From positions 2,108,001-2,172,000 of the forward strand of contig NZ_CP045740.1 in assembly GCF_009650765.1 (NCBI RefSeq): a stretch of 64,000 nt of DNA, read 5' to 3'. A program made the translations under genes and the position numbers. Shown piece by piece: positions 12,972 through 43,513 of the stretch. The notes under the pieces were generated by a model. That model had not been told where the DNA came from and ran no database searches. It worked only from the letters and a program-made list of their open reading frames with translations. Every line of letters begins with the position of its first letter. The stretch's first letter is position 1. The DNA is from Streptomyces sp. SUK 48 (lineage in GTDB: Bacteria; Actinomycetota; Actinomycetes; Streptomycetales; Streptomycetaceae).

Positions 12972-12978
12972 GCGCCTC

Positions 12979-13010: not shown

Positions 13011-13035
13011 GGCGCGGGTGGGGCGGGTTGGCTGG

Positions 13036-13078: not shown

Positions 13079-13123
13079 CGCATTGCTTCAAGAAATCCAC
13101 ACGCCATATCCGAAAGGCTGAAG

Positions 13124-14755: not shown

Positions 14756-14782
14756 ACCCACCCCGTCCCCGGAGGTTTTCCC

Positions 14783-15925: not shown

Positions 15926-15999
15926 TGCGGCCCCGCGCCCCTTCGGGGCGCTCCCCTGAACGGCATTGAAAAGTCCCCCTCTCTTGGAGTGAGTGACAC

Positions 16000-17295: not shown

Positions 17296-17297
17296 TC

Positions 17298-17780: not shown

Positions 17781-17800
17781 CACCGCCGAAGGAGCTGACC

Positions 17801-18879: not shown

Positions 18880-19856
18880 CCGCACCCGTTGCCCCCGAGG
18901 CCGACTGGGAGAAAGCCCCCGGCCTGCTGGACGGCGCGAAGGAACTCACCCTCGGCCCCGAGGAGTGCGACCTCGCCTACTGGTTCACCTCCGTCGCCCA
19001 GGGCACCCTGCGCGACCGAGGTGCCACCGGCCACCATGTGGACGCCCTCACCCCCGACTTCCTGAAGGCCCCCGGCCCGCTGCGCGAGGCCCTGATCCTG
19101 GAGTTCGGCTTCCGGGCCCTCTCCGAGGAGCTCGCCACCCGGCTGCTCGGCCACTACGTGACCATCGCGCCCTCCATCCCCGAGATGGAGTTCTACGCCA
19201 CCCAGCTGATCGACGAGGCCCGGCACGCCCGTGTCTTCCGCCAGCACCTGGTGGATCTCGGCATCCCGCAGAGCGCCCTGCTGCGGGAGATCGAGGAGAT
19301 GACCCAGGACTACCGCAAGCGGGTCCTGAACCCGGTGGTGGACTTCACGCTGGACATCGTCCGCGACAAGGCCGACTTCCCCGGCGGCGTGGGGGTGTTC
19401 GCCATCATCATCGAGGGCGTCCTCGCCCCCGCCGCCGAGCTCAGCGAGCGCAAGTGGACCCCGCTGTCCCCGGCGACCGGCGAGATCTCCCGCGGCACCG
19501 CCATCGACGAGATCCGCCACCTCACCGTGGCCAGCACCATCCTGCGCGACCACCTCGTCGAGCACCCCGAGTACACCCCCCGGCTCCTGGAGATCCTGCG
19601 CTCGGGCGTCAAGCTGTGGGACGAGCTGCCGGACCGCGAGTTCGTCATCCACCGCGAGGAGCTGTTCCAGGAAGGCATGTTCAAGCACGCCGACCTGATC
19701 GGCGACTACGAGGTCTGGCCGGGCGTCCGCCTCCTCGACACCACTCCCGACCAGCGCTACGACATGGCCGAGCAGTGGACCGACGAGATGGCCGAGGTCC
19801 GGATGGAGTACATGGGCCTGCCCGTCGAGGTCCTCGCCTCGGAGGCCGGCGCATGA
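18876..19856 (+). CDS. Ferritin-like non-heme diiron oxygenase, candidate azoxy-forming enzyme (VlmB-like)
   Basis: 326 residues, mostly helical, with the two diiron ligand sets visible: Glu in FRALSEELATR (helix 1), ExxH in YATQLIDEARHARVF (helix 2), Glu in AIIIEGVLAP (helix 3) and ExxH in TAIDEIRHLTVAS (helix 4). This is the pattern of AurF/VlmB-type N-oxygenases and related ferritin-like oxidases. It is coupled by ATGA overlaps to the flavin reductase before it and the KAS III gene after it. By analogy with VlmB it could oxidise a hydrazine by four electrons to the azoxy group. Electrons may come from the ferredoxin at 26,026-26,352. Confidence 0.82.
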   Translation: MTAPVAPEADWEKAPGLLDGAKELTLGPEECDLAYWFTSVAQGTLRDRGATGHHVDALTPDFLKAPGPLREALILEFGFRALSEELATRLLGHYVTIAPSIPEMEFYATQLIDEARHARVFRQHLVDLGIPQSALLREIEEMTQDYRKRVLNPVVDFTLDIVRDKADFPGGVGVFAIIIEGVLAPAAELSERKWTPLSPATGEISRGTAIDEIRHLTVASTILRDHLVEHPEYTPRLLEILRSGVKLWDELPDREFVIHREELFQEGMFKHADLIGDYEVWPGVRLLDTTPDQRYDMAEQWTDEMAEVRMEYMGLPVEVLASEAGA

Positions 19857-20860
19857 GTACCGGGCGGGCGGCGGTCGTCACCGGGATCGGCTCGTACGTC
19901 CCGCCCAACATCGTCACCAACGAGGACCTCTCACGGCGCCTCGACACCTCCGACGAGTGGATCCGCACCCGTACCGGCATCGCCGAGCGGTTCTACATCA
20001 CCCCCGGAACCACCACCGGCGACCTCGCGGTGGAGGCGGGCCTGCGGGCCCTGAAGTCGGCGGGCGACGAGCAGGTCGGCGCGGTGGTGCTCGCCACCAC
20101 CACCCCGGACCAGCCCTGCCCCGCGACCGCCCCCCAGGTGGCCGCGCGGCTCGGGCTCGGCCAGGTGCCCGCCTTCGACGTGGCGGCCGTCTGCTCCGGG
20201 TTCCTGTACGGCCTCGCGTCCGCCGCCGGGCTGATCGCCTCCGGGGTCGCCGACAGCGTGCTCCTGATCGCCGCCGACGCCTTCACCACGATCATCAACC
20301 CGGAGGACCGCACCACCGCCGTGATCTTCGCGGACGGCGCGGGCGCGGTGGTACTGCGGGCCGGCTCGCCGGACGAACCCGGCGCGCTCGGACCGCTGGT
20401 GCTCGGCAGCGACGGCGAGCTGAGCCATCTGATCGAGGTCCCGGCGGGCGGCTCCAAGCAGCGCTCCTCGGGCCGCCCGGCCGCCCCGGAGGACCACTAC
20501 TTCCGGATGCTCGGGCGGGAGACCTACCGGCACGCGGTGGAGCGGATGACCAGCGCGTCCACCGAGGCCGTCGAACGGGCCGGCTGGCGCCTGGAGGACG
20601 TCGACCGGTTCGCGGCACACCAGGCCAACGCCCGCATCCTGGAGGCCGTCTCGGACCGGCTCGACATCCCCGAGGAGCGGCGGCTCAGCAATATCGCGCG
20701 GGTCGGCAACACCGGTGCCGCCTCGATCCCGCTGCTGCTCGCCGAGGCCACCGCCGACGGGCGGCTGACCGCGGGGAACCGGGTGCTGCTCACCGCGTTC
20801 GGCGGCGGGCTCTCCTGGGGCGCGGCCACGGTCGTCTGGCCCGAACTCCAGACCATCTGA
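19853..20860 (+). CDS. 3-oxoacyl-ACP synthase III (FabH-like)
   Basis: 335 residues from ATG at 19853, which overlaps the diiron gene's stop. The complete FabH triad is present: Cys in AAVCSGFLYG near 113, His in FAAHQANARI near 254 and Asn in RVGNTGAAS near 284. It begins RAAVVTGIGSYVPPNIVTN and has the SDEWIRTRTGI substrate loop. It is followed by an ACP and a KAS II, so the three make a small dissociated fatty acid elongation set, presumably to build the alkyl chain that becomes the fatty amine. Chain length cannot be predicted by eye. Compare the active-site-altered KAS III-like protein at 2,359-3,369. Confidence 0.92.
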   Translation: MSTGRAAVVTGIGSYVPPNIVTNEDLSRRLDTSDEWIRTRTGIAERFYITPGTTTGDLAVEAGLRALKSAGDEQVGAVVLATTTPDQPCPATAPQVAARLGLGQVPAFDVAAVCSGFLYGLASAAGLIASGVADSVLLIAADAFTTIINPEDRTTAVIFADGAGAVVLRAGSPDEPGALGPLVLGSDGELSHLIEVPAGGSKQRSSGRPAAPEDHYFRMLGRETYRHAVERMTSASTEAVERAGWRLEDVDRFAAHQANARILEAVSDRLDIPEERRLSNIARVGNTGAASIPLLLAEATADGRLTAGNRVLLTAFGGGLSWGAATVVWPELQTI

Positions 20861-20895
20861 CCGATCGTCAGAAAAGACCTTCGAAAGGAATCGTC

Positions 20896-21126
20896 ATGCT
20901 GGAGCAGCTCAAGGAAATCCTGTCCAACAAGCTCAAGGTGTCGCCCGAGGCCATCACCCCCGAGGCCACCCGGGAGGACATCGAGCTGGACTCGCTGGCC
21001 GTCGTGGAGCTGTCGCTGCTGCTGAAGTCCGAGCTGGACCTGGACGTCAGCGACGACGACCTCCTGGAAGCCGAGACCGTGGCCGACATGGTCTCGCTGA
21101 TGGAGGAGCGGAGCGCGAAGGTCTGA
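20896..21126 (+). CDS. Acyl carrier protein (FAS/type II)
   Basis: 76 residues from ATG at 20896 with GAAAGGAA upstream. The phosphopantetheine attachment site is ELDSLAVVEL (Ser near 36) within an acidic four-helix sequence. Its stop overlaps the KAS II start (TGATG). Flanked by KAS III and KAS II genes, it should be the carrier for the fatty chain. It differs clearly from the longer ACP at 12,672-12,971, which serves the PKS operon. Confidence 0.95.
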   Translation: MLEQLKEILSNKLKVSPEAITPEATREDIELDSLAVVELSLLLKSELDLDVSDDDLLEAETVADMVSLMEERSAKV

Positions 21127-22346
21127 TGGCCGCGATGGACATCGCCGTCACCGGGCTCGGTCTGATCACCCCCGGCGGGATCGGGGTCGGACCGAGCTGG
21201 GCGGCGGTCTGCGACGGCAGGCCGGCCGCGGCCCTCGATCCGGTGCTGGCCGACAACCCCGTACAGCTCTCCTGCCGGGTGCCCGGCTTCGATCCCGAGA
21301 GCCTGCTGAGCGCGCGCCGGGCCCACCGCCTGGACCGGTTCGTGCAGTTCGCGCTGGTCGCCGCGCACGAGGCGGTGGCCGACGCGGGTCTCGACCCGAG
21401 GACCTGGGACGGCGCCCGGGTGGGCGTGGTCCTCGGCTGCGCCGACGGCGGCCCTGGCACGGTCGAGGAACAGCACCATGTGCTGCGCGAGCAGGGCGCG
21501 GACCGGGTGTCACCCCTGCTGCTGCCGATGCAGCTGCCGAACATGCTGGCCGGTCAGACGGCCATCGAGTTCGGGGCGACCGGTCCCAACCTGGTGGTGG
21601 CCACCGCGTGCGCGTCCGGCGCGACGGCCATCGGCACCGCCCGGGATCTGCTGGCGCTCGGCCGCTGCGACATCGTGCTGGCCGGCGGCAGCGAAGCCAT
21701 GATCACCCCGCTGGTCATGGCCGGGTTCGCCCAGATGGGCGCGCTGTCCAAGCGGCACGACGACCCGGCGTCCGCCTCCCGCCCCTTCGACGCCGACCGC
21801 GACGGGTTCGTGGCCGGCGAGGGGGCCGGAATCCTGGTGATGGAGCGCGTCGCCGACGCGCGGGCCCGTGGGGCGCACATCCACGGGCGGATCATCGGGT
21901 ACGGCGCCACGGCCGACGCCCACCACATGACGTCGCCGCATCCCGACGGCGCCGGCATCGAGGCGGCGGTCCGCGCCGCGCTCGCCGACGCGGGCGCCGA
22001 CCCCGACGACGTCGAGCACGTCAACGCGCACGGTACGTCGACGCCGCTGAACGACCTGTCCGAGGCACGGATGATCCAGCGGACGCTGCGCGGCGATCCG
22101 GTGGTGACGTCCACCAAGGGGGTCACCGGGCATCTGCTGGGCGCGGCGGGCGCGGTCGAGGCCGCGTTCACCGTGCTCAGCGTCGAGCACGAAATCATCC
22201 CGCCCACCGCCAACCTGGTGATGCCGGACGCCCGGATGGAGATCAAGCTGGCACAGACCCTGACCGAGATGCCGATCGATCTGGCGCTGAGCAATTCCCT
22301 CGGGTTCGGCGGGCAGAACACCGCTCTGGCGATCGCGCCCGCCTGA
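21126..22346 (+). CDS. 3-oxoacyl-ACP synthase II (FabF-like)
   Basis: 406 residues. Cys-His-His active site: Cys in VATACASGATA near 163, His in VNAHGTSTPLND near 301 and His in GVTGHLLGAAG near 337; also FDADRDGFVAGEGAG and NSLGFGGQN at the C-terminus. The ATG shares a base with the ACP stop. It is the last gene of the rightward operon; a strong hairpin follows 16 bp later. It extends the ACP-bound alkyl chain together with the KAS III and, presumably, the InhA-like reductase. Keto-reductase and dehydratase activities are not encoded nearby and must come from primary metabolism. Confidence 0.94.
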   Translation: MAAMDIAVTGLGLITPGGIGVGPSWAAVCDGRPAAALDPVLADNPVQLSCRVPGFDPESLLSARRAHRLDRFVQFALVAAHEAVADAGLDPRTWDGARVGVVLGCADGGPGTVEEQHHVLREQGADRVSPLLLPMQLPNMLAGQTAIEFGATGPNLVVATACASGATAIGTARDLLALGRCDIVLAGGSEAMITPLVMAGFAQMGALSKRHDDPASASRPFDADRDGFVAGEGAGILVMERVADARARGAHIHGRIIGYGATADAHHMTSPHPDGAGIEAAVRAALADAGADPDDVEHVNAHGTSTPLNDLSEARMIQRTLRGDPVVTSTKGVTGHLLGAAGAVEAAFTVLSVEHEIIPPTANLVMPDARMEIKLAQTLTEMPIDLALSNSLGFGGQNTALAIAPA

Positions 22347-22362
22347 GCAGACGCCCCGCATT

Positions 22363-22404
22363 CCAACAGCCGTCCGCTGAGCACGTTCCGCGGGCGGCTG
22401 TTGG
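22363..22404 (+). terminator. Rho-independent-type hairpin after the rightward operon
   Basis: Arms CCAACAGCCGTCCGC and GCGGGCGGCTGTTGG pair over 15 bp with one mismatch around a 12-nt loop, 16 bp after the KAS II stop. There is no U-tract, which is common in Streptomyces terminators. It separates the biosynthetic operon from the permease-SerRS pair. Confidence 0.8.
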
Positions 22405-22456
22405 CCTTGACCCACCCCCCACAGTCCCCACCCCACTCCCCATATCTGGAGCACCC

Positions 22457-23941
22457 ATGTCCACCACCAGTGGTTCGCCGCCCGTCTCGGGGCGGCTCGG
22501 TACCGCGCACATCCTGTTCCTCATCGTCGCCGCCGCGGCCCCGCTCTCCGCGATGGTCGGCACCGTCCCGCTCGCGTTCGCGTTCGGCGACGGGGCCGGA
22601 GTGCCGGCGGCGTTCCTGTTCGCCGGGGTGACCCTGCTCTGCTTCTCGGCCGGGTACGCGGTCAGCGCGCGGCGCACCGGCGGGTCCGGCGGGTTCTACG
22701 CCTCCGTCGCCGACGGACTCGGCAGACCCCCGGCGGTCGCGGCCGGGTACATGGCCCTGCTGTCGTACAACTGCGCGACCATCGGGCTGGCCGGCGCGCT
22801 CGGGTACTTCACCCAGCTCGTGCTCGCCGCCCATGGGCTGACGGTGTCCTGGGAGTGGTGCGCGGCGGTCGGGCTGGTGCTGACCGCGGTGCTCGGCTAC
22901 CGGGAGATCGCGCTGAGCGCCCGGGTGCTGGCCCTGCTGATGCTGGGCGAGATCGGGGTGCTGGCGGCGCTGGACGTGTCGATCCTCGTCCGGCACGGGG
23001 TGCACGCGCTGCCCGCCGCCTCGTTCTCCCCGCACACCGCCGCGGGCCCCGGCGTCGGTGTCTCGCTGATGTTCGCGTTCGTGTCCTTCATCGGGTTCGA
23101 GTCGGCGGCGCTGTACGGCAAGGAGGCGCGCAACCCGGAGCGCAGTGTGCCCCGGGCGACGTACGCGGCCGCCGCGCTGATCGCCGGGTTCTACGCGCTG
23201 ACCAGCTGGCTGGCGGTGGGCGCGATCGGCCCGGACCACGTGCGCGAGGTCGCCGGCAAGCAGATGGGCGACCTGTTCTTCGGGCTCGGCGACGACTTCC
23301 TCGGCTCGGCGGGCAGCACACTGCTCCAAGTCCTGCTGTGCACCAGCCTGTTCGCGGCGACGCTGGCCCTGCACAGCGCCGCCAACCGCTACGCCCAGGT
23401 CCTCGCCCAGGACGGGCTGCTCCCCCGCACGCTGGCCGCCGAGCACGCCCGGCACGGCTCCCCGCACCGGGCGAGCGTGTGGCAGAGCATGCTGACCGCG
23501 CTGGTGCTGGCCGGGTTCGCGGTGGCGGGCCTGGACCCGTACGCCGACCTGACCACCAGCATGCTCGGCCTGGGCACCCTCGGCATCGTCACCCTCCAGG
23601 CGCTGGCCGCGCTGTCGGTGCTCGGGCTGCGGCTGCGCGCCGGGCACGGGCACTGGTGGAAGGAGACCCTCGCCCCGCTGCTGGGCTTCGCCGGGCTCGC
23701 CACCTCCGTCTGGCTGGTGGTCGGCAACTTCGACATGCTCACCGGCTCCCCCTCCCAGGTGATCGCCGCGCTGCCCTGGCTGCTGCCGCTGGTCGCGCTC
23801 GGCGGGCTCCTCTACGCGGCCCGGCTGCGCGGCGCCCACCCGCTGCGCTACCGGCAGCTCGGCACCCGGCACACCGCCACCCCCGCCGCCCCCGACCTCA
23901 CCCTCACCCCGTCAGGAGACCGCCATGCACGATCCCAATGA
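22457..23941 (+). CDS. APC-family amino acid permease
   Basis: 494 residues with about 12 hydrophobic segments. It begins GRLGTAHILFLIVAAAAPLSAMVGTVPLAFAFG and carries FVSFIGFESAALYGKEARNPERSVPRA, the conserved loop of APC permeases. The C-terminal 40 residues are hydrophilic. ATG at 22457 follows CTGGAG. Its last 17 bp overlap the SerRS gene, so the two are co-translated. It may import or export an amino acid such as serine, or the product itself; pairing with SerRS makes serine attractive but nothing in the sequence proves it. Confidence 0.88.
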   Translation: MSTTSGSPPVSGRLGTAHILFLIVAAAAPLSAMVGTVPLAFAFGDGAGVPAAFLFAGVTLLCFSAGYAVSARRTGGSGGFYASVADGLGRPPAVAAGYMALLSYNCATIGLAGALGYFTQLVLAAHGLTVSWEWCAAVGLVLTAVLGYREIALSARVLALLMLGEIGVLAALDVSILVRHGVHALPAASFSPHTAAGPGVGVSLMFAFVSFIGFESAALYGKEARNPERSVPRATYAAAALIAGFYALTSWLAVGAIGPDHVREVAGKQMGDLFFGLGDDFLGSAGSTLLQVLLCTSLFAATLALHSAANRYAQVLAQDGLLPRTLAAEHARHGSPHRASVWQSMLTALVLAGFAVAGLDPYADLTTSMLGLGTLGIVTLQALAALSVLGLRLRAGHGHWWKETLAPLLGFAGLATSVWLVVGNFDMLTGSPSQVIAALPWLLPLVALGGLLYAARLRGAHPLRYRQLGTRHTATPAAPDLTLTPSGDRHARSQ

Positions 23942-25202
23942 GCTGATCGAGGCCGGCGAGGACGCCAAGCGCCGCCTGGCCCGCCGCCGTTACGAGCTCG
24001 ACCTGGACGCCGTGGGCGGTGCGCTGCGCGCCCGTACGGCCGCCAACGCCGAGGTGACCCGGCTGCGCACCGAGCTGAACAGGACGGCCAAGGCCCGCCG
24101 TTCGGGCCCGCCCAGCGAGGCCGAGAAGGAGGCTGCCCGCGCGCTGCGCGCCGAGGTACAGCAGGCGGAGGGCGTCGCCCGGGTGGCCGCGGCGGACCTG
24201 ACCGAACTGCTGCTGGGCATCCCCAACCTGCCCCTGGACAGCGTCCCGGACGGCGACTCCGAGAAGGAGGCCGTGGAGGTGCGCCGGGGCGGTCCCGCGC
24301 CGCGCCCGGCCGAGGGCGCCCGGCACCACGCGGAGATCGGCGAGGCCCTCGGCATCCTGGACCCGCAGGCCGCGGCCAAGCTGTCCGGCGCCCGGTTCAG
24401 CGTGGCGCACGGCGCCGGGGCCCGCCTGGAGCGCGCCCTCGCCGACTTCTTCCTCGACCTGCACACCCGCGAGCACGGCTACACCGAGCAGTCGGTGCCG
24501 TACCTGGTCTCCCGGGACACCATGACCGGCACCGGGCAGCTGCCCAAGTTCGAGGAGGACCTCTTCCGCACCCAGGTCGGCGAGCGGGAGCTGTTCCTGA
24601 TCCCGACCGCGGAGGTGCCGCTGACCAACCTGGTCTCCGGCGAGCTGCTGGACGCGCGGGCGCTGCCGTACGCCTTCACCGCCCGCACCCCCTGCTTCCG
24701 CGCGGAGGCGGGCGCGTACGGCCGCGACACCCGCGGTGTGCTGCGGCTGCACCAGTTCGAGAAGGTGGAGCTGGTGCGGATCTGCGCCCCCGAAGAGGCG
24801 CAGGAGCAGCTGGAGTTGATGGTCGGGCACGCCGAGGAGTGCCTGCGCCGGCTCGAACTGTCCTTCCGCACCGTGCTGCTGCCCGCGGGCGACATGGGCT
24901 TCTCGGCGCGGATGACGTACGACATCGAGGTGTGGCTGCCGGGCGGTGACGCCTTCCGGGAGATCTCCTCGGTGTCCGACTGCGGCACCTTCCAGGCGCG
25001 CCGCGCGGACATCCGGGTCAAGCGGGCCGACGGCCGCAAGTCGCCGGCCGCCACGCTGAACGGCTCGGCGCTGCCGATCGGCCGGACGGTGGCCGCGCTC
25101 TTGGAGCAGGGCGTGCAGGACGACGGTTCGGTGCTGCTGCCGGCGGCGCTCCAGCCGTACACCGGGTTCCGGCGCATCCTGCCGGGCGGCATCACCGAGT
25201 GA
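23925..25202 (+). CDS. serS: Seryl-tRNA synthetase (pathway copy, VlmL-like)
   Basis: 425 residues. An N-terminal charged helical arm (about residues 1-110) is the coiled coil that grips the long variable arm of tRNA-Ser. The class II catalytic core shows PYLVSRDTMTGTGQLPKFEEDLF, motif 2 FRAEAGAYGRDTRGVLRLHQFEK, EISSVSDCGTFQARRADIR and motif 3 LNGSALPIGRTVAALLEQ. Every bacterium already has a housekeeping SerRS, and a second copy in a biosynthetic cluster is the hallmark of seryl-tRNA-consuming pathways (VlmL in valanimycin). The C-terminal end is short, with no extra domain. SerRS does not read the anticodon, so it could charge the anticodon-defective tRNA at 30,694. Confidence 0.93.
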   Translation: MHDPNELIEAGEDAKRRLARRRYELDLDAVGGALRARTAANAEVTRLRTELNRTAKARRSGPPSEAEKEAARALRAEVQQAEGVARVAAADLTELLLGIPNLPLDSVPDGDSEKEAVEVRRGGPAPRPAEGARHHAEIGEALGILDPQAAAKLSGARFSVAHGAGARLERALADFFLDLHTREHGYTEQSVPYLVSRDTMTGTGQLPKFEEDLFRTQVGERELFLIPTAEVPLTNLVSGELLDARALPYAFTARTPCFRAEAGAYGRDTRGVLRLHQFEKVELVRICAPEEAQEQLELMVGHAEECLRRLELSFRTVLLPAGDMGFSARMTYDIEVWLPGGDAFREISSVSDCGTFQARRADIRVKRADGRKSPAATLNGSALPIGRTVAALLEQGVQDDGSVLLPAALQPYTGFRRILPGGITE

Positions 25203-27898: not shown

Positions 27899-28999
27899 TC
27901 AGGCCGCTTCCATGGCCTGGCGGCGGATCTGCTCGTCGACGTCACCGCGGCGCACCGGGGCGCTGACCTTGTGGAGGAAGGAGGCGACCTCGCGGTACGA
28001 GCGCCAGAAGCCGACCTCGTGGTACGGCACCCCGCGTTCGGCGCAGTACTCCATGGTCAGCTCGCGGGCGCGGGGCAGGCTCTTCTGCGGCATGGCCGGG
28101 AACAGATGGTGCTCGACCTGGTAGTTGAGGCCGCCGTACAGGAAGTCGATGAACAGGCTGGGGCGGATGTTGCGGGAGGTGAGCACCTGGCGCTGCAACC
28201 AGTCCAGGGTCTCCACCTCGCCGTCGCGGACCTCCATGCCCTTGTGGTTCGGGGCGAAGATCATGCCGAAGTACACGCCGAGGGCGGCGTGCTGGACGAC
28301 GATGAAGGCGACCGCGAGGCCCGGGGACAGGACGGTGAAGACGCAGGTGAGGTAGACGGCGGCGCGCAGCAGGATGAGGGAGGTCTCCAGCAGCGGGCGC
28401 TTGGTCTTGCCGCCGGTGATGGACACCACCGCGGTCTTCAGCATCTTGAAGCCCTCGAGGACCAGCAGCACGAAGAACATCACGCTCTGGTAGCGCACCA
28501 CGAGCTTCTGGGTGCCCGTGCGGGTCGGGTACTGCTTGATGTCGAAGATGGCGGTGCGCCGGCCGATGTCCGGGTCCATGTCGAGGTGGTTGGGGTTGGA
28601 GTGGTGCCGGTTGTGGTGGTTGACCCACCAGCCGTAGCTGACCCCGTTGACCAGGTTGGCGTGCACGTAACCGACGGCGGACGCGGCCTTCTTGCTGCGG
28701 AACATGGCCTTGTGACCGGCGTCGTGCCACATGAACGCCGACTGGCCGCCGCACAGGCCCATCCACACGGCGGTGAGCAACTGCCACCAGCTGTTGCCCA
28801 GTTCGAAGAACGCGGCGAACCCGATCGCCAGCAGGGCGGTGTTGAGGGCGAGCTTGCCCACGTAGTAGCGCGGGTCCAGATCGAGGAGGCCCTCGGCCTT
28901 GACCCGCTTGAGCAGTTCGGCGAAGGTGGCCGACGCGCCGGTGCGTTCGCCGCCCGGCGCGGCCGCGGCCACGGCTTCCTGTATGTGCGGACGCTGCAT
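27899..28999 (-). CDS. Membrane fatty acid desaturase
   Basis: 366 residues with the three histidine boxes of acyl-lipid desaturases: HDAGH near 92, HHNRHH near 128 and QVEHH near 297, between about four hydrophobic segments (LALNTALLAIGFAAFF, SVMFFVLLVL and others). QxxHH in the last box is typical of front-end and acyl-lipid delta desaturases. A SARP-type promoter (P4) lies about 200 nt upstream, so the long untranslated leader is notable. In alkenyl-azoxy compounds the alkyl chain carries a double bond next to nitrogen; this enzyme is a good candidate to introduce it, or an earlier chain double bond. Confidence 0.9.
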   Translation of the reverse strand: MQRPHIQEAVAAAAPGGERTGASATFAELLKRVKAEGLLDLDPRYYVGKLALNTALLAIGFAAFFELGNSWWQLLTAVWMGLCGGQSAFMWHDAGHKAMFRSKKAASAVGYVHANLVNGVSYGWWVNHHNRHHSNPNHLDMDPDIGRRTAIFDIKQYPTRTGTQKLVVRYQSVMFFVLLVLEGFKMLKTAVVSITGGKTKRPLLETSLILLRAAVYLTCVFTVLSPGLAVAFIVVQHAALGVYFGMIFAPNHKGMEVRDGEVETLDWLQRQVLTSRNIRPSLFIDFLYGGLNYQVEHHLFPAMPQKSLPRARELTMEYCAERGVPYHEVGFWRSYREVASFLHKVSAPVRRGDVDEQIRRQAMEAA

Positions 29000-29201: not shown

Positions 29202-29244
29202 AGCGTTCCGTGCACCACTGATGTGGCACTGATACCGGTCTGAT
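29202..29244 (-). promoter_or_regulatory. SARP-type operator and promoter P4
   Basis: Leftward 7-mers ATCAGAC (29244-29238), ATCAGTG (29233-29227) and ATCAGTG (29222-29216) repeat every 11 bp, followed 8 bp later by AACGCT (29207-29202). Predicted transcription starts near 29,195 and runs into the desaturase, leaving a leader of about 195 nt with several GC-rich inverted segments but no ORF I would defend (29,001-29,201). Confidence 0.7.
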
Positions 29245-29509: not shown

Positions 29510-30517
29510 TCAGAACGCCTTGCAGGCACGGAAGATGTGCGCGAAGCCGGGCAGCGACGCCTGCGGCCCGTCGAAGGCGACGTACTCGGGGATCAGCACG
29601 TCCGGGGCCCACTTCTGCTTGTACGACAGCTGGGTCTGCGCCGGGTACAGCGCCGCGCCCTCGGCCCACAGGGCGTGCATCAACCACTGGAACCCCGGGC
29701 TGTGGCCGTCGAGTTCGTGTCCGGCGTCGAGCCCGGTGAACGGCGTGAAGCCGAAGTGCAGCCACTCGACGCCCTCGGCGCGGAAGACCTCGATGGCGTG
29801 CGCGTTGATGGCCTCCATCAGGCCCGGCGAGCCCTCGGGGATGCGCCGGCTGAGGTCGTGCATCCAGCCGGCCCGGCTGCCGTAGACCGGCGAGTACGAG
29901 ATGTAGGCGACCGGCTCGCCGTCGATGGTGCCGCTGAACAGCCGGCGCTGCGCCTGGGCGGGCCCGCCGATCTGGCCGACCAGGAACTCCAGCTGCTGCG
30001 CGCCGCCCTTGGAGCCGAGCCACGCCCTGTCGATCACGGCGATGTCGTCGGCGACCTCGGTCGCGTCGACCTCCTGGATCTGGAGGCCGTTGCGCAGCGC
30101 GCGGGAGATCTTGTTGCGCAGCTGCATGAACTTGGTGCCGCGCAGCGTGAAGTCCGCGAGGCTCACCGCCCAGGAGGCGCCGATCTGGTTGACGACGCAG
30201 CCGCGCGCCGCGTACCGCTCGGCGTCGGCCCGCTGGAGCTGCACGCCGACCAGGCTCAGGCCCTCGTCGCGGACGTAGGTCCGGAAGGCGTCCAGGAGGG
30301 TGTCGTAGTCGCCCTCGGCCGCGAACGGGCCGCCGAACTGCACGGCCCAGCGGCCGGTGCGGCGGTAGACGACGACACCGTCCACGCCCGGGACGGTGAA
30401 GGCACTGTTTCCGCTGTTGAGAGCGAGGAAGGAACTCGGGTTCTCGCTCGTGGTGTGGGCTCGTACGGCGTCGAGAATCAGCCTGTCCGTACCGGTCTCG
30501 GTGGTGATCGCGGTCAT
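29510..30517 (-). CDS. Seryl-tRNA-dependent acyltransferase of the MprF/LPG-synthase C-terminal fold (VlmA-like)
   Basis: 335 residues from ATG at 30517 with AAAGGGG seven bases upstream; a further ATG at 30598 would add 27 residues but has no SD. The tandem GNAT-like fold is read from SSFLALNSGNSAFTVPGVDGVVVYRR, GCVVNQIGASWAVSLADFTLRG, MQLRNKISRALRNG, FSGTIDGEPVAYISYSPVYG and the C-terminal WLHFGFTPFTGLD. This is the soluble domain of lysylphosphatidylglycerol synthases that takes an amino acid from aminoacyl-tRNA; VlmA of valanimycin uses seryl-tRNA to esterify isobutylhydroxylamine. With a dedicated SerRS and a tRNA-Ser-like gene adjacent, the same reaction on a long-chain hydroxylamine is strongly suggested. 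Confidence 0.82.
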   Translation of the reverse strand: MTAITTETGTDRLILDAVRAHTTSENPSSFLALNSGNSAFTVPGVDGVVVYRRTGRWAVQFGGPFAAEGDYDTLLDAFRTYVRDEGLSLVGVQLQRADAERYAARGCVVNQIGASWAVSLADFTLRGTKFMQLRNKISRALRNGLQIQEVDATEVADDIAVIDRAWLGSKGGAQQLEFLVGQIGGPAQAQRRLFSGTIDGEPVAYISYSPVYGSRAGWMHDLSRRIPEGSPGLMEAINAHAIEVFRAEGVEWLHFGFTPFTGLDAGHELDGHSPGFQWLMHALWAEGAALYPAQTQLSYKQKWAPDVLIPEYVAFDGPQASLPGFAHIFRACKAF

Positions 30518-30610: not shown

Positions 30611-30653
30611 GTCAGAACCGCGTCAGCATTCCGTCAGCCGTTACTGCCAAAGT
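30611..30653 (+). promoter_or_regulatory. SARP-type operator and promoter P5, driving the tRNA-like gene
   Basis: Rightward 7-mers GTCAGAA (30611), GTCAGCA (30622) and GTCAGCC (30633) repeat exactly every 11 bp; CAAAGT (30648-30653) follows after 8 bp and matches four of six bases of TAGAGT. Transcription should begin near 30,660, giving a leader of about 34 nt before the tRNA 5' end for RNase P to remove. The repeats point toward the tRNA, away from the seryl-transferase gene; the transferase's own promoter (30,518-30,610) was not identified. Confidence 0.7.
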
Positions 30654-30693
30654 AGTTGACGTGAACGGCGCCGGAATCCGGAGCCGGACACGG

Positions 30694-30787
30694 GGAGAGG
30701 TGCCCGGAGTGGCCGATCGGGGACCACGTGCACCGCGCTGGTCGGGCCCAACAGCCCACGCAGGTTCAAATCCTGCCCTCTCCGCCA
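30694..30787 (+). tRNA. Serine-type tRNA with a non-standard anticodon arm, possible non-decoding seryl donor
   Basis: 94 nt with CCA encoded. Acceptor stem GGAGAGG (30694-30700) pairs perfectly with CCTCTCC (30777-30783), then discriminator G784 and CCA. D arm: CCCG (30703-706) with CGGG (718-721) and a loop containing GAGTGG. Long class II variable arm: GGGC (744-747) with GCCC (754-757), two bases before the T arm. T arm: GCAGG/CCTGC (760-764, 772-776) with loop TTCAAAT. These are the SerRS identity elements. The anticodon arm is abnormal: GACCA (722-726) pairs with TGGTC (739-743) around a 12-nt loop, or the stem extends by three imperfect pairs to a 5-nt loop GCACC. No 7-nt loop with T33 forms without mismatches; forcing one gives anticodon GCA (Cys) with two stem mismatches. 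Likely chargeable with serine but not able to decode. Confidence 0.78.
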
Positions 30788-31073: not shown

Positions 31074-31871
31074 ATGCTGAGGTTCTCCGTTCTCGGAGCG
31101 CTGGAGATACGCACCACCGCCGGCGAGGCGGACGTGTGCGGCGATCTCCAGCGCACTCTGGTGCAGACCCTGCTGGTCAGTGAGGGCCGGCCGGTGTCCG
31201 GGGAGAGCCTGGCGGAGGAGATGTGGGGCGAGACCCTGCCCGACCATCGGGCCAACGCCCTCCAGGCGCACATCAGCCGGCTGCGGCGCAGGCTGCGGGC
31301 GCTGGAGCCGGACCGCCCCGCCTCCCGGGTGACCATCCATCCGGCCGGCTACCGGCTCAGCGTCGGCGAGGGCGAGCTGGACGCGGCGGAGTTCGTACGG
31401 GCCGTACGGCAGGCCGAGTCGGCCGGGCCCAAGGACCCGGAGCGCACCGCCCGGATGCTCGGCGAGGCCCTCGCGCTGTGGCGGGGCCCGGTGTTCGGCG
31501 GCTTCCCCGGCGGCACCATGTGCCAGCTCGCCGGGGCCCGGTACGAGGAGTACCGGATGCGCGCGATGGAACTGCGCTTCGACGCCGAACTGCGCCTGGG
31601 CAGACATGCCTCGGTGCTCGCGGAGCTGGCCGAGGCGCACACCAACCACTCGCTGCGCGAGCGCTTCTGCGAGCAGCTGATGGTCGCCCTGTACTGCTCG
31701 GGCCGGCAGGCCGACGCGCTCGACGTGTTCCGCCGGATGCGCCGCAGGCTGGACGAGGAGCTGGGCATCCAGCCGTCGCCCGCGCTGCGCAAGGTGGAGC
31801 TGGCGATCCTCTCGCACGATCCGGCGCTCACCGGCGATCACCTGGTCCCGACGGCGTTGCAGCCGGTGTGA
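31074..31871 (+). CDS. SARP-family transcriptional activator
   Basis: 265 residues, the size of the small SARPs (ActII-ORF4 class). It has an N-terminal winged-helix OmpR-like DNA-binding domain (LRFSVLGALEIRT, TLLVSEGRPVSGESLAEEMWG, RANALQAHISRLRRRL, GYRLSV), then a bacterial transcriptional activation domain (ELDAAEFVRAV, ALALWRGPVFGG, LRERFCEQLMVALYCSGRQADALDVFRRMRRRL, LGIQPSPALRKVE). ATG at 31074 is preceded by AGGGGG. No ATPase or sensor domain is present. The six RTCAGNN repeat promoters in the cluster are its probable targets. Its own upstream region lacks such repeats, so it is probably controlled from outside. Confidence 0.93.
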   Translation: MLRFSVLGALEIRTTAGEADVCGDLQRTLVQTLLVSEGRPVSGESLAEEMWGETLPDHRANALQAHISRLRRRLRALEPDRPASRVTIHPAGYRLSVGEGELDAAEFVRAVRQAESAGPKDPERTARMLGEALALWRGPVFGGFPGGTMCQLAGARYEEYRMRAMELRFDAELRLGRHASVLAELAEAHTNHSLRERFCEQLMVALYCSGRQADALDVFRRMRRRLDEELGIQPSPALRKVELAILSHDPALTGDHLVPTALQPV

Positions 31872-31959: not shown

Positions 31960-31991
31960 GTCAGTGCCCGGTCAGACCGCGTTGCCACGAT
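31960..31991 (+). promoter_or_regulatory. SARP-type operator and promoter P6
   Basis: GTCAGTG (31960) and GTCAGAC (31971) are spaced 11 bp, followed 8 bp later by CACGAT (31986-31991). It places the acyl-CoA carboxylase pair in the cluster regulon and extends the cluster to 33,827. Predicted leader about 70 nt. Confidence 0.68.
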
Positions 31992-32070
31992 CGTGTCCGG
32001 ATCACCCCGGCGACGGTCCGGCGCGGGCAGCGTCCGATGTCACGTCACCTCACCACAGAGGCAGGCAGAG

Positions 32071-33615
32071 ATGAAGTCCCATATCGCGGAACTGGCCGGC
32101 ATACGCGAGAGCGTGCTCGCCGGCCCGAGCGAGAAGGCGACCGCGGCGCAGCACGCCAAGGGCAAGCTGACGGCACGGGAGCGGATCGAACTGCTCCTGG
32201 ACCCCGGTTCCTTCCAAGAGGTCGAGCCGCTGCGCCGGCACCGGGCGACCGGTTTCGGCCTGGAGGCGAAGAAGCCCTACACCGACGGTGTGATCACCGG
32301 CTGGGGCACGGTCGACGACCGTACGGTCTTCGTCTACGCGCACGACTTCCGCATCTTCGGCGGCGCGCTGGGCGAGGCCCACGCCACCAAGATCCACAAG
32401 ATCATGGACATGGCCATCGCGGCCGGCGCACCGCTCGTGTCCCTGAACGACGGCGCGGGCGCCCGCATCCAGGAGGGCGTGACCGCGCTCGCCGGCTACG
32501 GCGGCATCTTCCGCCGGAACACGGCCGCCTCCGGAGTGATCCCGCAGATCTCCGTGATGCTCGGCCCGTGCGCGGGCGGCGCCGCCTACTCCCCCGCGCT
32601 GACCGACTTCGTGTTCATGGTCCGCGAGACCTCGCAGATGTTCATCACCGGACCTGACGTGGTCAAGGCGGTCACCGGCGAGGAGATCACCCAGAACGGC
32701 CTGGGCGGCGCGGACGTGCACGCCGAGACGAGCGGGGTCTGCCACTTCGCCTACGACGACGAGGAGACCTGCCTGGAGGAGGTCCGATACCTCCTGTCGC
32801 TGCTCCCGGGCAACAACCGGGAGAACCCGCCGCGGACGGAGTGCTCCGACCCGGCCGACCGGCGCTGCGAGGCGCTGGCCGATCTGGTGCCGGAGGACGG
32901 CAACCGGCCGTACGACATGACGAAGGTGATCGAGGAGATCGTCGACGACGGCGAGTTCCTGGAGGTCCACCAGCGCTGGGCCCGCAACATCATCTGCGCG
33001 CTCGCCCGCCTCGACGGCCAGGTCGTCGGCATCATCGCCAACCAGCCGCAGTCCCTCGCGGGCGTCCTCGACATCGAGGCGTCCGAAAAGGCCGCGCGCT
33101 TCGTGCAGATGTGCGACGCCTTCAGCATCCCGCTGGTCACCCTGCTGGACGTGCCGGGCTTCCTGCCGGGCGTCGGCCAGGAGCACGGCGGCATCATCCG
33201 CCGCGGCGCGAAGCTGCTGTACGCCTACTGCAACGCGACCGTGCCGCGCATCTCGCTGATCCTGCGCAAGGCGTACGGCGGCGCGTACATCGTCATGGAC
33301 TCCCAGTCGATCGGCGCGGACCTGACGTTCGCGTGGCCGACGAACGAGATCGCGGTGATGGGCGCGGAGGGCGCGGCCAATGTCATCTTCCGCCGCCAGA
33401 TCGCCGACGCCGAGGACCCCGAGGCCATGCGCGCGCGGCTGGTCAAGGAGTACAAGTCCGAGCTGATGCACCCCTATTACGCCGCCGAGCGCGGCCTCGT
33501 CGACGACGTCATCGATCCCGCCGAGACCCGTGAGGTCCTGGTGCGGTCGCTGGCGATGCTCCGCACGAAGCACGCGGAGAGCCCCGCCCGCAAGCACGGC
33601 AACCCCCCTCAATGA
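32071..33615 (+). CDS. Acyl-CoA carboxylase beta (carboxyltransferase) subunit
   Basis: 514 residues from ATG at 32071; the frame continues upstream to 31993, inside the promoter. Crotonase-fold carboxyltransferase landmarks: KLTARERIELLLDPGSFQE, GARIQEGVTALAGYGGIFRRN, the oxyanion GPCAGGAAYSPALTDF and, in the C-terminal half, DVPGFLPGVGQEHGGIIRRGAKLLYAY and RKAYGGAYIVMDSQSIGADL. It matches the PccB/AccB group that carboxylates acetyl- or propionyl-CoA when paired with a biotinylated alpha subunit encoded elsewhere. Asp in the substrate pocket (as I recall, near 420) separates propionyl from acetyl specificity, but I cannot place it by eye. It should raise malonyl- or methylmalonyl-CoA supply for the KAS and PKS enzymes; the AT motif suggests malonyl. 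Confidence 0.93.
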   Translation: MKSHIAELAGIRESVLAGPSEKATAAQHAKGKLTARERIELLLDPGSFQEVEPLRRHRATGFGLEAKKPYTDGVITGWGTVDDRTVFVYAHDFRIFGGALGEAHATKIHKIMDMAIAAGAPLVSLNDGAGARIQEGVTALAGYGGIFRRNTAASGVIPQISVMLGPCAGGAAYSPALTDFVFMVRETSQMFITGPDVVKAVTGEEITQNGLGGADVHAETSGVCHFAYDDEETCLEEVRYLLSLLPGNNRENPPRTECSDPADRRCEALADLVPEDGNRPYDMTKVIEEIVDDGEFLEVHQRWARNIICALARLDGQVVGIIANQPQSLAGVLDIEASEKAARFVQMCDAFSIPLVTLLDVPGFLPGVGQEHGGIIRRGAKLLYAYCNATVPRISLILRKAYGGAYIVMDSQSIGADLTFAWPTNEIAVMGAEGAANVIFRRQIADAEDPEAMRARLVKEYKSELMHPYYAAERGLVDDVIDPAETREVLVRSLAMLRTKHAESPARKHGNPPQ

Positions 33616-39343: not shown

Positions 39344-42300
39344 TCAATACTGTTCAACATGGAGTCTGAGCACCATGACGCCCTGGCTGAGGCCGACGGC
39401 GAGACGGCCATCGGCCTCGATGACGGAGAATGCTTCCCGGCGTACGGGGATATTGAGCACCGGTCGTAGGTTTTCGTCTGCCCACAGGCCCACGCAGCGC
39501 CCGGTCTGACCAGCGCTCGCGAGCAGCTCCCGACTCCCGAACTCTACGCGGCTGACACTGTTCACCCACCCGTTGTGCAGCTCCCGCGCATTGACCCTGT
39601 GGCCCGTCTCGGGATCCAGGACCCACACCGAACCGACGCCCCAGCTGTCCTCCTCGTCCGTGCTCACTTGCCGTTTCACCACCAGGAGATCTTTGCCGCC
39701 CGTGTCGAGTGCGCACAGGCATCCCATTTCAGCGTCTGGGATCCGCAGGGAAAAGATCACTTTCGACTGGCCCACATCCCACACGGTGACCGTGCCGAAG
39801 TCGTCCATCACGTTACTTTGAAGGACTCCAAGCCCGGCGCCGCCTCCAGTACGGAGACCACAGAGGTCATCAACTCGTCCCAGGTCACCGCCATCAAAGC
39901 AATTGATCCGCTCCCCGGACGACGGATCCAAAATCAGAACCCGATTTGCATTTTCCTCACTGAAAGCCAATGCGAGGCACGTCCTGCCACTCACATTAAT
40001 CGGAGAAATTTTCCGAGGCCAGCCCTCGATCTTAATTTCCTTGACTGCCTCCGATACGGGATCCCAGACCTGGAGCGCCCCCTCTTTCAGACTGCCGCTG
40101 GCGATGGCCAGACAGGAACGGTCGTCCACCTGTACCATACATAGATCCAGAACGCGAGCATAAGGGGCGCCTACCACCTTAACGAGTTCACCCGTCGCGA
40201 TGTCGTGTATCCGGACAGCACCGGGTAACCCATTGTCGGCGAGAGCCTCGCGATCGCCGAGCCTGAGTGTGCACAATGAATCGACCCAACCGCCCGCTTC
40301 GTCGTAACGTTGAGCAACCGGTTGTCGGTCGAGGTCCCAGAGGCGCACGGTGCGGTCCTCGCCAGCACTGGCCAGAAGCCATTCACCTTCCGATCGCACC
40401 CCGCACACATCTCCCACCCAGCCGTCATGGCCTTCCAGAGAGTGAGTCCGCACACCTGTGACCGGATCCCAGATCACGATGGTCCCGGCCTCCTCCTGAC
40501 CGTATCCGGCTACCACAAGAGGACCGTGGGCGCTGTGCACAGTGGCGAGAGTGAAAATGTCGCTTTCTTCCATGCCGTCGAGCAGCCGGATGGGCTTTCC
40601 GCTACAAGGGTCGAGGAGCAGGATGTCTTCTCCATGATTAGTGGCCAGAAGAGGTCCGTCCAGGCAGGGCACCGCGGTGAGCTTTCGGCTGAACAGGCTG
40701 CTACTGCACGCCGAGAACACCCGGACCGTTTTCCCGGTCGCTGGATCCCACACACGTATCTGGTCGTACTTCTTCGAGCGTTGCGCAACGCTGATCGCCA
40801 GCAGTGGACGCTCGTTCTCGTCAAAAGCACATACGCTGTTGATACGACTGCCCCGGGTGCGGAAAGTACGCCGAGCCTCTCCTGTTCGAGGATCCCAGAT
40901 CGTCAATCGGCCGTCACGTCCGGCACTCACCAAACAGGGGTGGGACGCCATGTCGACGACGCACAGATGGTCGATCGGCGCGTCATGACCCTTCATCTCA
41001 CGGACGACGACGCCGGTCTCCGGGTCCCAGAGTCGCACGGTGCCATCGCTTCCAGCGCCGGCCAGCAGCGTGCTGTCATCCACTACCACCCCGCACAAAG
41101 CCCCAACCCAGCTTGAATACCCACCAAGGCTGCGGACGGCTTCGCCCGTCACCGCGTCCCAGAGCCGAATGGATTGCTCGTCAGCGCTCGCGACGAGGCT
41201 GCGCTCAGCAGTACGCATCGAACAGAGCGCGTTCACCTGCTTGTTGTGTCCCTCGAAGACGGCCACCTCCAACAACGGTGGTGCGGTCGACCAGAGGGCC
41301 TGGTAGGGAGCCGCCTTGTCGCTGTGCCTGTACGTTGTTCCAAGGTCTTCCTGTACCTCGGTCACACTGAACAAGGCCGCCCGTTCGGATGCCGTGGCGT
41401 CGAGGGCGCGCGGTGTCCGTCGTAGTAGCTCTGCGCGCTGACGGCCGCTGCCCGTGACCGCGGAACGCGCTTGCGGGATGAGGCGACGCAGGTCGGCGTG
41501 GAGCAGGTATTCGTCCTCTTGTAGCAGCCGGTCGATCATGCCACCGCGTTTCGCGTGCGTGGCCAGGGACCGCAAGAGATAGCGGGGTGCGTTTACCCAA
41601 CCGCGCTCAACTCCCTCCTCGATGAATGCGCGTGCGATGGCCAGCTCGTCCGAGGCGAGCAGCGCCAGGTCGGCCCGTGAGGCACGCAGTGCGTCGTTCA
41701 ATGCTTGATGGAAGAGTCGGAAACTGATGTCGGGCGAGTCGTCAGTGGTGGACTCGAGGAGAAAGTTCGCCGCAGAGGACCGTGCGAAGGCGAGCAACTC
41801 GTCCTCGGCAGGAGCTGTCCGGAACAGTGCGGTGAGAGCTGTCCGCCACAGACGGGGCGGAAGGCCAGGGCTTTCGGCGTGTGCGAGCGGGATGAGTAGT
41901 TTCTCGGCAGACAGCCCCGCGAGGTCGGGCAGATAGCGCAGGTATTCGCGCAGCGAGGTCTCCACCGTCACCGGGAAGGACACCTCGTCCAGGTCAACGG
42001 CCTCTGGATCATGCATTCCGTGTGCCCGGGCTACCAGCCCGGCCACCAGGAAGTTGCCGTCGGCCAGTTCGGCAATACGTTCCGCGACCGGGAAGGCCAA
42101 TGCACCGTCCGCGTAAGGGTTCCTACCACGCTCGTCGCCCCGGAGCTGAAGCGTGGCCAACGCATATGCGACCAGATCCGAGTGCTCTGAAAGTTCAGGT
42201 CCGTTGAGATCGAGGACCCGCGCCGAGTGTCCGAAGCTGGCCAGCAGGTCGCCCGCGTCGTCACGACGTCGGGTTCCCACTACCAGGCGTGCTCCTGCGC

Positions 42301-43513
42301 CTGTGCACGTCTCCGCGAGGGGTACCAGTATGTGGTTGATGATGGCACGTGCATCGGCCGGTGAGGCCGCTTCGTCGAGTGCGTCGATGACGAGTGCGAA
42401 GGAACGGGCGGGGCGTTCCTGCAAGACTTCCCGCAAGAACGGTGGCAGATCGATGACCTGGCTCGGCAAAGCAGTGGAAGCGGCGCGGGCGATTTCCTGA
42501 GCCACCTCCAAAGCGGTCTTGCCCTTGGCGTGCACAGCGCAGGCTACGGCTCCCAACGGCGCGCGTAGAGCCGTGTCATATGGCGGCAGCGACGAGGCGA
42601 TATCGGGGTCCGCGGTTGTGATGACCCGGCCCAGCACCGCAGACTTGCCGGAGCCTGGTGTGCCAGTGACTACCAGCACCTTGCGCTGAGGTGGAGCGGC
42701 GCTGATCCACCGACTGATCTCACCCAGTACAGCGGTACGGCCTTGGAACCGAAAGCCGCGTTCCGCGTCGGTGTTCACCCCACGAGCGCGCGGTCGCCAG
42801 TGCCTCCCGGCTTCCAGATCGGTGTTCAGGGACCAGCCCCATGCGGACAGGGCCGGCTCGTCGGCGGCTTCAAGCGACCACTCAGTGAGCTCACGCAGCT
42901 TCTCAGCCGGCAGAAGCCGGTCGATCTGGCGCACGGTAATGGCCAGCGCATCCCCCGTGCCGCTGTGCGCCTGCCCTATCAGACCGACAACGGCTTCGTA
43001 CGCCGCCGACCACACAGCGGAACCACTGTAACCGCCTTTGACCGGATACCGAGACCGATGGGCATCGAGTCGCATCCAGCCGTGCCCGAGCGTCTCTCCC
43101 ACGTCCCCGCTCGCGGAATTGCCGAGTACTCCCTCGGGAAAGCCGAACGACCACCACTCCGTGCCGACCAGATCGCCGGGAGCCGCTCGCCTCAGCCGTG
43201 CTGCGAGGTCCTTGGGCAATTCCTCGGCAAGGTGCAGCACCGCCGCGTCCCGGACCTCGTGGACACCACCCGGAGGCAGCACCACATCAGCAACCTGGAC
43301 ACGGTGATCGACGGCCTCCTCGGCCTTGGGAAAGGCAGCCCACAGAACTCCGCTTCGCTCCCAGACCGTCTGCACCACATGAGCGCAGGTCAGCACGCGC
43401 CGCTCATCGATCAGAACGCCGGAGCCCAGCGGGCGCATGTCCTGCTCAGTGGCGTGGAGCGCCGCCACCCAAGTGTCGCGTTGGGGCCGGATTCCTTGCG
43501 AAGTCGCCCTCAT
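39344..43513 (-). CDS. Trypsin-STAND NTPase-WD40 conflict protein
   Basis: 1,389 residues. Residues about 1-210 are a trypsin-like protease: His in VLTCAHVVQ, Asp in EVRDAAVLHL, Ser in KGGYSGSAVW. Residues about 255-550 are a STAND P-loop NTPase: Walker A GTPGSGKSA near 291 and Walker B FALVIDALDEA near 381. A helical linker follows, then from about 760 to 1,380 a WD40 propeller with repeated SIRLWD, TVRLWD, TIWDP, IRVWDP and TVRLWDL blades. Such triads are described as NTP-dependent biological-conflict (immune-type) systems in which the propeller senses and the protease is the effector. ATG at 43513 overlaps the stop of the small partner gene. GC is visibly lower than in its neighbours, suggesting transfer. 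Confidence 0.88.
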   Translation of the reverse strand: MRATSQGIRPQRDTWVAALHATEQDMRPLGSGVLIDERRVLTCAHVVQTVWERSGVLWAAFPKAEEAVDHRVQVADVVLPPGGVHEVRDAAVLHLAEELPKDLAARLRRAAPGDLVGTEWWSFGFPEGVLGNSASGDVGETLGHGWMRLDAHRSRYPVKGGYSGSAVWSAAYEAVVGLIGQAHSGTGDALAITVRQIDRLLPAEKLRELTEWSLEAADEPALSAWGWSLNTDLEAGRHWRPRARGVNTDAERGFRFQGRTAVLGEISRWISAAPPQRKVLVVTGTPGSGKSAVLGRVITTADPDIASSLPPYDTALRAPLGAVACAVHAKGKTALEVAQEIARAASTALPSQVIDLPPFLREVLQERPARSFALVIDALDEAASPADARAIINHILVPLAETCTGAGARLVVGTRRRDDAGDLLASFGHSARVLDLNGPELSEHSDLVAYALATLQLRGDERGRNPYADGALAFPVAERIAELADGNFLVAGLVARAHGMHDPEAVDLDEVSFPVTVETSLREYLRYLPDLAGLSAEKLLIPLAHAESPGLPPRLWRTALTALFRTAPAEDELLAFARSSAANFLLESTTDDSPDISFRLFHQALNDALRASRADLALLASDELAIARAFIEEGVERGWVNAPRYLLRSLATHAKRGGMIDRLLQEDEYLLHADLRRLIPQARSAVTGSGRQRAELLRRTPRALDATASERAALFSVTEVQEDLGTTYRHSDKAAPYQALWSTAPPLLEVAVFEGHNKQVNALCSMRTAERSLVASADEQSIRLWDAVTGEAVRSLGGYSSWVGALCGVVVDDSTLLAGAGSDGTVRLWDPETGVVVREMKGHDAPIDHLCVVDMASHPCLVSAGRDGRLTIWDPRTGEARRTFRTRGSRINSVCAFDENERPLLAISVAQRSKKYDQIRVWDPATGKTVRVFSACSSSLFSRKLTAVPCLDGPLLATNHGEDILLLDPCSGKPIRLLDGMEESDIFTLATVHSAHGPLVVAGYGQEEAGTIVIWDPVTGVRTHSLEGHDGWVGDVCGVRSEGEWLLASAGEDRTVRLWDLDRQPVAQRYDEAGGWVDSLCTLRLGDREALADNGLPGAVRIHDIATGELVKVVGAPYARVLDLCMVQVDDRSCLAIASGSLKEGALQVWDPVSEAVKEIKIEGWPRKISPINVSGRTCLALAFSEENANRVLILDPSSGERINCFDGGDLGRVDDLCGLRTGGGAGLGVLQSNVMDDFGTVTVWDVGQSKVIFSLRIPDAEMGCLCALDTGGKDLLVVKRQVSTDEEDSWGVGSVWVLDPETGHRVNARELHNGWVNSVSRVEFGSRELLASAGQTGRCVGLWADENLRPVLNIPVRREAFSVIEADGRLAVGLSQGVMVLRLHVEQY

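Follow-up and report, generated by a model that had tools for sequence, protein, structure and literature searches.

A tmRNA folds like a tRNA and is aminoacylated, but has no anticodon; it enters the ribosome and brings its own reading frame for a tag. The specialized tRNAGly of Staphylococcus retain the anticodon loop and are encoded within ordinary sets of tRNA genes. These tRNAGly isoacceptors are described as specialized for peptidoglycan in the accessible part of the source (PMC4810233). In the valanimycin system, comprising the transferase VlmA, the seryl-tRNA synthetase (SerRS) VlmL and the SARP VlmI, VlmA makes O-seryl-isobutylhydroxylamine with Ser-tRNA and has been characterized with Ser-tRNASer (PMC12945691, available excerpt). 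The reviews, in the sections available, speak of Ser-tRNASer and mention no dedicated tRNA, and one from 2014 states in its accessible part that it is unknown how valanimycin-type pathways divert Ser-tRNA from translation (PMC4052509).

Here, we analyzed a window of 64,000 nucleotides from Streptomyces sp. SUK 48, the term referring to the whole stretch of DNA under study. At 30694–30787 on the forward strand, it harbors a gene for a tRNASer-like RNA that lacks a usable anticodon and of which the host genome has 13 copies. This RNA is probably a serine carrier dedicated to the VlmA-like transferase that belongs to a predicted azoxy pathway. Like the valanimycin system, the locus combines genes for a VlmA-like transferase, an additional SerRS and a SARP in a single cluster, and O-seryl hydroxylamine chemistry is predicted here; it differs from the accounts of that system consulted in the presence of the RNA itself. 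Like the Staphylococcus tRNAGly, the RNA would be a separate tRNA supplying an amino acid outside translation, a role suggested here by association; unlike them, it lacks the anticodon loop, occurs in many copies and has operator-like repeats in common with a secondary-metabolite pathway. It resembles tRNAOther of Bacillus cereus as a tRNA-like RNA outside translation, but the latter has retained a Trp anticodon, accepts its amino acid poorly and forms part of a larger regulatory RNA (PMC3399842). With tmRNA, it has the tRNA-like fold without an anticodon in common, but ARAGORN finds no tmRNA with a tag frame in the window. A search of the open-access literature, in the portions of text available, found no description of the RNA. 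Each known kind considered fails one of the features tested; for the principle of a dedicated, non-translational tRNA, there is a precedent in Staphylococcus.

The gene consists of 91 bases plus an encoded CCA, and inspection of its sequence confirms all the tRNA elements listed in the original prediction: a GGAGAGG/CCTCTCC acceptor, discriminator G, CCA, D arm, a variable arm GGGC/GCCC and a T arm. GACCA/TGGTC indeed encloses a 12-nt stretch, as had been noted, and in the minimum free energy (MFE) fold, this stretch is predicted to pair on via GUGC/GCGC with one bulged C, resulting in a 9-bp arm closed by a 3-nt loop. The MFE cloverleaf reaches −46.1 kcal/mol (z −2.28), compared with −39.4 kcal/mol for a plain 12-nt loop. 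A normal 7-nt loop in a more favorable fold, named in the original prediction as a refuting result, was looked for and not found; the single 7-nt-loop alternative evaluated (−41.8) is 4.3 kcal/mol worse than the MFE and lacks U33. The Rfam tRNA model RF00005, suggested earlier as a check for a class II tRNA, aligns end to end with the RNA at 28.5 bits (E 0.00038), just below the gathering score of 29, a value that refers to the window copy alone, and an Rfam scan of the window gave no match at gathering level. A model of the RNA family (R1, see below) assigns 94.1 bits to the gene. ARAGORN labels it “tRNA-Cys gca” and assigns conflicting anticodons to its relatives, e.g. Val, Ala, Ile, Leu, Arg, SeC or “???”. 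The RNA gene is real and part of a large family unnamed by the tools used.

A transferase search yielded 64 related loci in named genomes. The covariance model of the family, built on 54 distinct RNAs, produces 76 matches of at least 79 bits in 50 of these 64 loci, plus the window copy; two of the 76, each ~190 bases long, resemble damaged copies merged into one match, another is truncated by the end of its contig, and a partial match of 42.7 bits was left out. Host tRNASer and tRNATyr score 41.7–49.3 bits under the same model. Homologs are therefore present in related clusters, where the original prediction had proposed to look for them and where their absence would have refuted it, and the RNA is more than a chance occurrence. 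Tandem arrays contain up to five copies per locus. Intermediate model scores in three genomes (G047, G105, and G184) turned out to be ordinary tRNASer(TGA) and one in G008 to be a tRNATyr, and an ARAGORN “tRNA-Pro” in locus L221 does not fold as a tRNA.

Conservation was analyzed in 140 distinct sequences, collected with a sequence pattern that misses some copies, including a host copy with one mismatch (L116). The same pattern underlies the upstream-repeat, identity and counterpart comparisons below; the locus table derived from it undercounts copies, and labels of RNA presence were taken from the family model. Acceptor, D and T arms are near-invariant, with the acceptor closed in the MFE fold of all 140 sequences. 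Predicted anticodon-arm loops measure 4 nt in 78 sequences, 5 nt in 30, 3 nt in 21, 6 nt in 4 and 7 nt in 2; in the MFE folds of the remaining five, the D arm is fused with the anticodon arm, and no loop is assigned. A 7-nt loop with U33 is predicted in none of the 135 assigned arms, both 7-nt loops lacking this base, and known stable tetraloops recur in the hairpin (GCAA 15 times, UUCG eight times). In the 54-sequence alignment, 96.6% of the cells are paired, 11 of 27 pairs have changed on both sides, and covariation is as high in none of 500 shuffles. The covariation proposed as a further check is thus found, including double changes in six of the seven anticodon-arm pairs; acceptor and T stems, being invariant in this alignment, are uninformative by themselves. 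Covariation and loop census together indicate that the anticodon arm is maintained as a hairpin and not as an anticodon loop. Given this census and the alternative folds of the window copy, we rejected an ordinary tRNA whose anticodon is out of place. A decayed duplicate was rejected in view of the near-invariant arms of the 140 sequences and of covariation, and an integration-site remnant in view of the full length of the RNA, its multiple copies and its own upstream repeats.

The family keeps G1-C72, G2-C71, G73 and the long variable arm. Serine identity draws on these features and is independent of the anticodon, as described in the available part of the literature (PMC9976931), and charging of the RNA by SerRS is proposed on these grounds. 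The host possesses a normal serine set of four tRNASer genes (GCT, TGA, CGA, and GGA), to which the window RNA is 62.5–66.0% identical; identity amounts to 62.4% with tRNATyr and 52.9–57.1% with three tRNALeu. Overall identity thus does not settle whether the RNA originated from tRNASer or tRNATyr. The discriminator G is common to the RNA and tRNASer, and tRNATyr and tRNALeu have an A.

The VlmA-like transferase of the window (PF09924, 224.8 bits) is encoded at 29510–30517 on the reverse strand, divergent from the RNA. The reading frame used here starts at 30517, 176 bases from position 30694, so that the predicted proximity holds with a distance one base short of the 177 bp given before; in most clusters, RNA and transferase lie within ~300 bases of each other. 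Across 392 Streptomyces genomes, surveyed with cut-offs of E under 1e-11 for the best RNA match and E ≤ 1e-20 for the transferase and with ten RNA candidates scored per genome, the RNA is found in 51, all of them (51/51) among the 82 with transferase (Fisher 9.6e-43, shared ancestry being ignored). Deeper rescoring of four of the 31 transferase-positive, RNA-negative genomes (G073, G086, G133, and G337) revealed nothing above normal-tRNA scores, and the other 27 were covered by the ten-candidate survey together with ARAGORN and the model over the transferase loci. A class-wide sample of 394 genomes, overlapping with the genus sample in at least G000 and G133, contains the RNA in five and the transferase in nine, with all five RNA genomes having the transferase. 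Matches with E ≤ 1e-9 occur in ten of 70 Kitasatospora genomes; nine are strong, and all nine belong to the 11 genomes with transferase. One Kitasatospora genome (G810, L289:1501–1592) harbors a lone 64-bit RNA copy with a broken fold and upstream TCAG repeats kept, and no transferase at E ≤ 1e-20. It is an exception to a strict RNA–transferase rule, yet it fits decay after loss of use. In one genome, two RNA copies are located 16 kb from a transferase that adjoins VlmH-, VlmO- and VlmB-like genes, a PLP decarboxylase, SerRS and SARP.

The distribution also follows the phylogeny of the transferase. In a quick tree of 120 transferases, which leaves 40 of its 116 inner branches open, the RNA state (assigned per genome; 86 plus, 31 minus, three unlabeled) needs three changes, compared with a shuffled mean of 27.6, and 28 of the 31 RNA-minus rows form one group, the other three standing apart. 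A SerRS homolog is present in 43 of 86 RNA-positive and none of 32 RNA-negative loci, and an Ady1-like (azodyrecin-type) methyltransferase (PF04072) in one and 20, respectively; corresponding numbers are 55 and three for a SARP, 68 and 13 for an AurF-like protein, and 56 and six for a desaturase, in loci that differ in length, absences being lower bounds. As SARP, AurF-like and desaturase frequencies differ too, RNA-positive and RNA-negative loci represent generally different cluster types. The azodyrecin paper, in its accessible part, proposes that Ady7 uses alanyl-tRNA (PMC9379638). This proposal and the azodyrecin-type genes of the RNA-negative clade suggest that the RNA accompanies transferases that likely use serine and is absent where alanine is the presumed substrate.

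In the window, the transferase adjoins azoxy-type genes, whose labels are in part assigned indirectly. On the forward strand, these encode an acyl-CoA-dehydrogenase-fold protein (14783–15925, PF02770/PF02771), which we take to be VlmH-like, a class III aminotransferase (16000–17295, PF00202), a 177-aa protein without Pfam match (17801–18334), putatively VlmO-like by place and size, and a diiron-oxygenase-like protein (18876–19856) with a weak AurF match below cut-off, putatively VlmB-like. The cluster SerRS (23925–25202, forward strand; PF00587, PF02403; TIGR00414 at 401.9 bits with a cut-off of 301.65) is 38% identical to the other SerRS of the host. A SARP-type activator with BTAD and Trans_reg_C domains is encoded at 31074–31871 on the forward strand, AfsR/SARP models scoring below cut-off. 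On the reverse strand, a ketosynthase III gene (2359–3369) and a carrier-protein/large PKS-like gene pair (6973–12980) carry SARP-type repeats upstream, and these genes may extend the azoxy cluster leftwards.

Upstream of the RNA gene, three TCAG repeats with 11-bp spacing form a predicted SARP-type operator (30612–30637, forward strand). Further SARP-type repeats of the window precede the ketosynthase III gene (3469–3484, reverse), the carrier-protein gene 12672–12980 (12995–13010, reverse) and a carboxyltransferase gene with the reading frame 31993–33615 (31960–31975, forward), and triple repeats are located before the desaturase gene 27899–28999 (29218–29243, reverse) and at the start of the operon 13028–25202 (13037–13062, forward), the latter inside the longest reading frame called, for which a later start codon is likely. 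These six places contain nine overlapping matches compared with 1.5 expected from 30 Markov resamples, and five matches of the stricter GTCAG form compared with 0.07. TCAG-N7-TCAG occurs within 150 bp upstream in 118 of 125 distinct lead-copy regions, compared with 2.8% of 150-bp windows drawn at random from these loci and 9/125 on the opposite strand, with spacings of 11 and 22 dominating; seven of the 125 lead copies are without the repeats, and all 13 host copies are preceded by them. The direct-repeat form matches described SARP sites, including that of the valanimycin activator VlmI, in the excerpt at hand (PMC10972967). We thus consider the TCAG repeats predicted SARP-type operators, common to RNA genes and cluster operons, to which binding is putative. 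A predicted 5′ leader (30661–30693, forward strand) with GTGAACGG and a short predicted hairpin, recognized from leader folds of host copies and by-eye alignment of upstream regions, is conserved before many RNA copies. As a regulatory box on its own, GTGAACGG was rejected, with two matches in the window compared with 2.38 expected, whereas the TCAG repeats did stand out. Just after seven of 12 host copies examined, hairpins are more stable than shuffles (z below −2).

Twelve of the 13 host copies match the T-arm pattern exactly, and the thirteenth deviates from it at one position; CCA is encoded in four. Apart from the window copy, all lie toward the ends of the 8.34-Mb chromosome, within its first 1.3 Mb or its last 0.75 Mb, and the 11–15-kb stretches inspected around these 12 yielded no homolog of the transferase or of SerRS. 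The idea of a seryl donor inside the cluster hence holds in part: the RNA recurs in related clusters, but 12 of 13 host copies lie outside. For most host copies, S. griseofuscus has a counterpart at the corresponding position, with flanks that are 81–95% identical in the matched pieces. The counterpart RNAs are 91.7–100% identical in nine comparisons, leaving out the pairs L124/L275 and L118/L268 that are not true counterparts, and this is not clearly above the flanks. Fourteen transferase loci have no local RNA. Thirteen of them belong to genomes with T-arm matches elsewhere, 12 of which contain at least one such copy at 79 bits or more, the only match in G399 being cut by a contig end; the remaining locus (L020) comes from a draft genome with a short cluster contig. 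S. griseofuscus harbors 15 T-arm matches and a truncated cluster copy. Partial deletion of the cluster copy is seen in this species and in S. murinus (L008 near 9830, L002 near 7203), where the cluster genes remain and other genome copies exist. RNA matches are also found in 13 Streptomyces plasmid records (large plasmids), including pSA3239 of S. lavendulae and one of S. griseofuscus, and one of the 13 covers only 35% of the RNA.

The simplest reading of these sequence comparisons is that the RNA would supply a separate seryl pool that is induced with the pathway. The cluster SARP would bind the TCAG repeats, switching on biosynthetic operons and scattered RNA genes together. After tRNA-like processing, the RNA would receive serine from the cluster SerRS, or from the housekeeping SerRS where none is nearby, which may apply to some genomes given that only half of the RNA-positive loci (43/86) encode a SerRS in the stretch examined. 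Once charged, it would be unable to decode on the ribosome, and its seryl group would be passed on by the transferase to a hydroxylamine as the entry to N–N bond formation. Transcription, charging, exclusion from translation and transfer of the seryl group are thus what we infer for this RNA. Characterization of VlmA with Ser-tRNASer, as far as described in the available excerpt, implies that ordinary Ser-tRNA can serve a relative of the window transferase, at least in that assay. In the genomes searched, the RNA recurs almost only where the transferase is present, which makes it a likely private serine carrier separating antibiotic from protein making. The original prediction of a dedicated, non-decoding seryl donor working with cluster SerRS and transferase gains strong comparative support from the 51/51 association, the tree, the repeats and covariation; it requires amendment in that there is not one RNA kept in the cluster and that a SerRS was found in part of the loci, in the stretches examined.

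A regulator that is no bulk donor, for example one that senses serine charging or acts as its decoy and thereby titrates SerRS or reports the supply to the pathway, would likewise have operator-like repeats in common with the pathway, and regulatory pseudo-tRNAs do exist, as exemplified by tRNAOther of Bacillus cereus (PMC3399842, accessible part). We regard this as unlikely, however, as a regulator would need neither the near-invariant full acceptor, T arm and G73 nor such a close match with the transferase clade, and arrays and scattered copies look like dosage. The scattered copies away from any transferase homolog might also point to a donor for another seryl- or aminoacyl-transfer step, the VlmA-like gene merely occurring in the same clusters. 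All 51 RNA-positive Streptomyces genomes nevertheless contain the transferase, including those whose clusters have no local copy, and most clusters place the RNA within ~300 bases of it, rendering this explanation quite improbable.

We consider it very improbable that the copies are duplicates of tRNASer in decay or have been carried along by mobile DNA, although some are truncated or damaged and those of the host lie toward the chromosome ends: the arms are near-invariant in 140 distinct sequences, covariation is seen, the genes have their own operator-like repeats and occupy the same places in two species, and the samples show one decayed copy in a genome without transferase. We attach even less probability to a translating tRNA with an enlarged loop that would serve frameshifting or recoding for cluster genes. 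ARAGORN forces an anticodon on many copies, as might be expected for such a tRNA, but these anticodons vary between copies, 129 of 140 predicted arms close with 3–5-nt loops, and the two 7-nt loops are devoid of U33.

A dedicated serine carrier as proposed here would offer a direct answer to how Ser-tRNA is diverted, namely by a separate pool that is chargeable, non-decoding and pathway-induced. If true, the RNA family would be an orthogonal carrier of aminoacyl groups that occurs in nature, and it would mark azoxy clusters that use serine. Genes of this type are mislabeled or passed over by ARAGORN, and cluster transfer to other hosts may require the scattered RNA genes too.

A transferase contig from another family of the same class (G486) bears an extra class II tRNA (L310:2075–2162) with a predicted 8-bp arm and a GUGA loop. 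Identity of this tRNA amounts to 76.1% with the tRNASer(CGA) of its own genome and to 63.9% with the window RNA. The contig carries VlmH- and VlmO-like genes, and neither TCAG repeats nor a SerRS were found on it. Judged from sequence, this single case is a possible independent origin from tRNASer(CGA). Taken together, Actinobacteria probably operate a private seryl-tRNA economy for secondary metabolism, in which an anticodon-less tRNASer family of up to 15 genes per genome would be switched on by the SARP of the pathway itself and provide a serine pool beyond the reach of ribosomes, and a second family appears to have built the same independently (G486, one case).

Elsewhere in the window, the region 39344–43513 on the reverse strand encodes a 1389-aa protein with a trypsin-type protease-like start and WD40-like repeats, accompanied by a small partner gene, which by eye resembles a bacterial conflict system.
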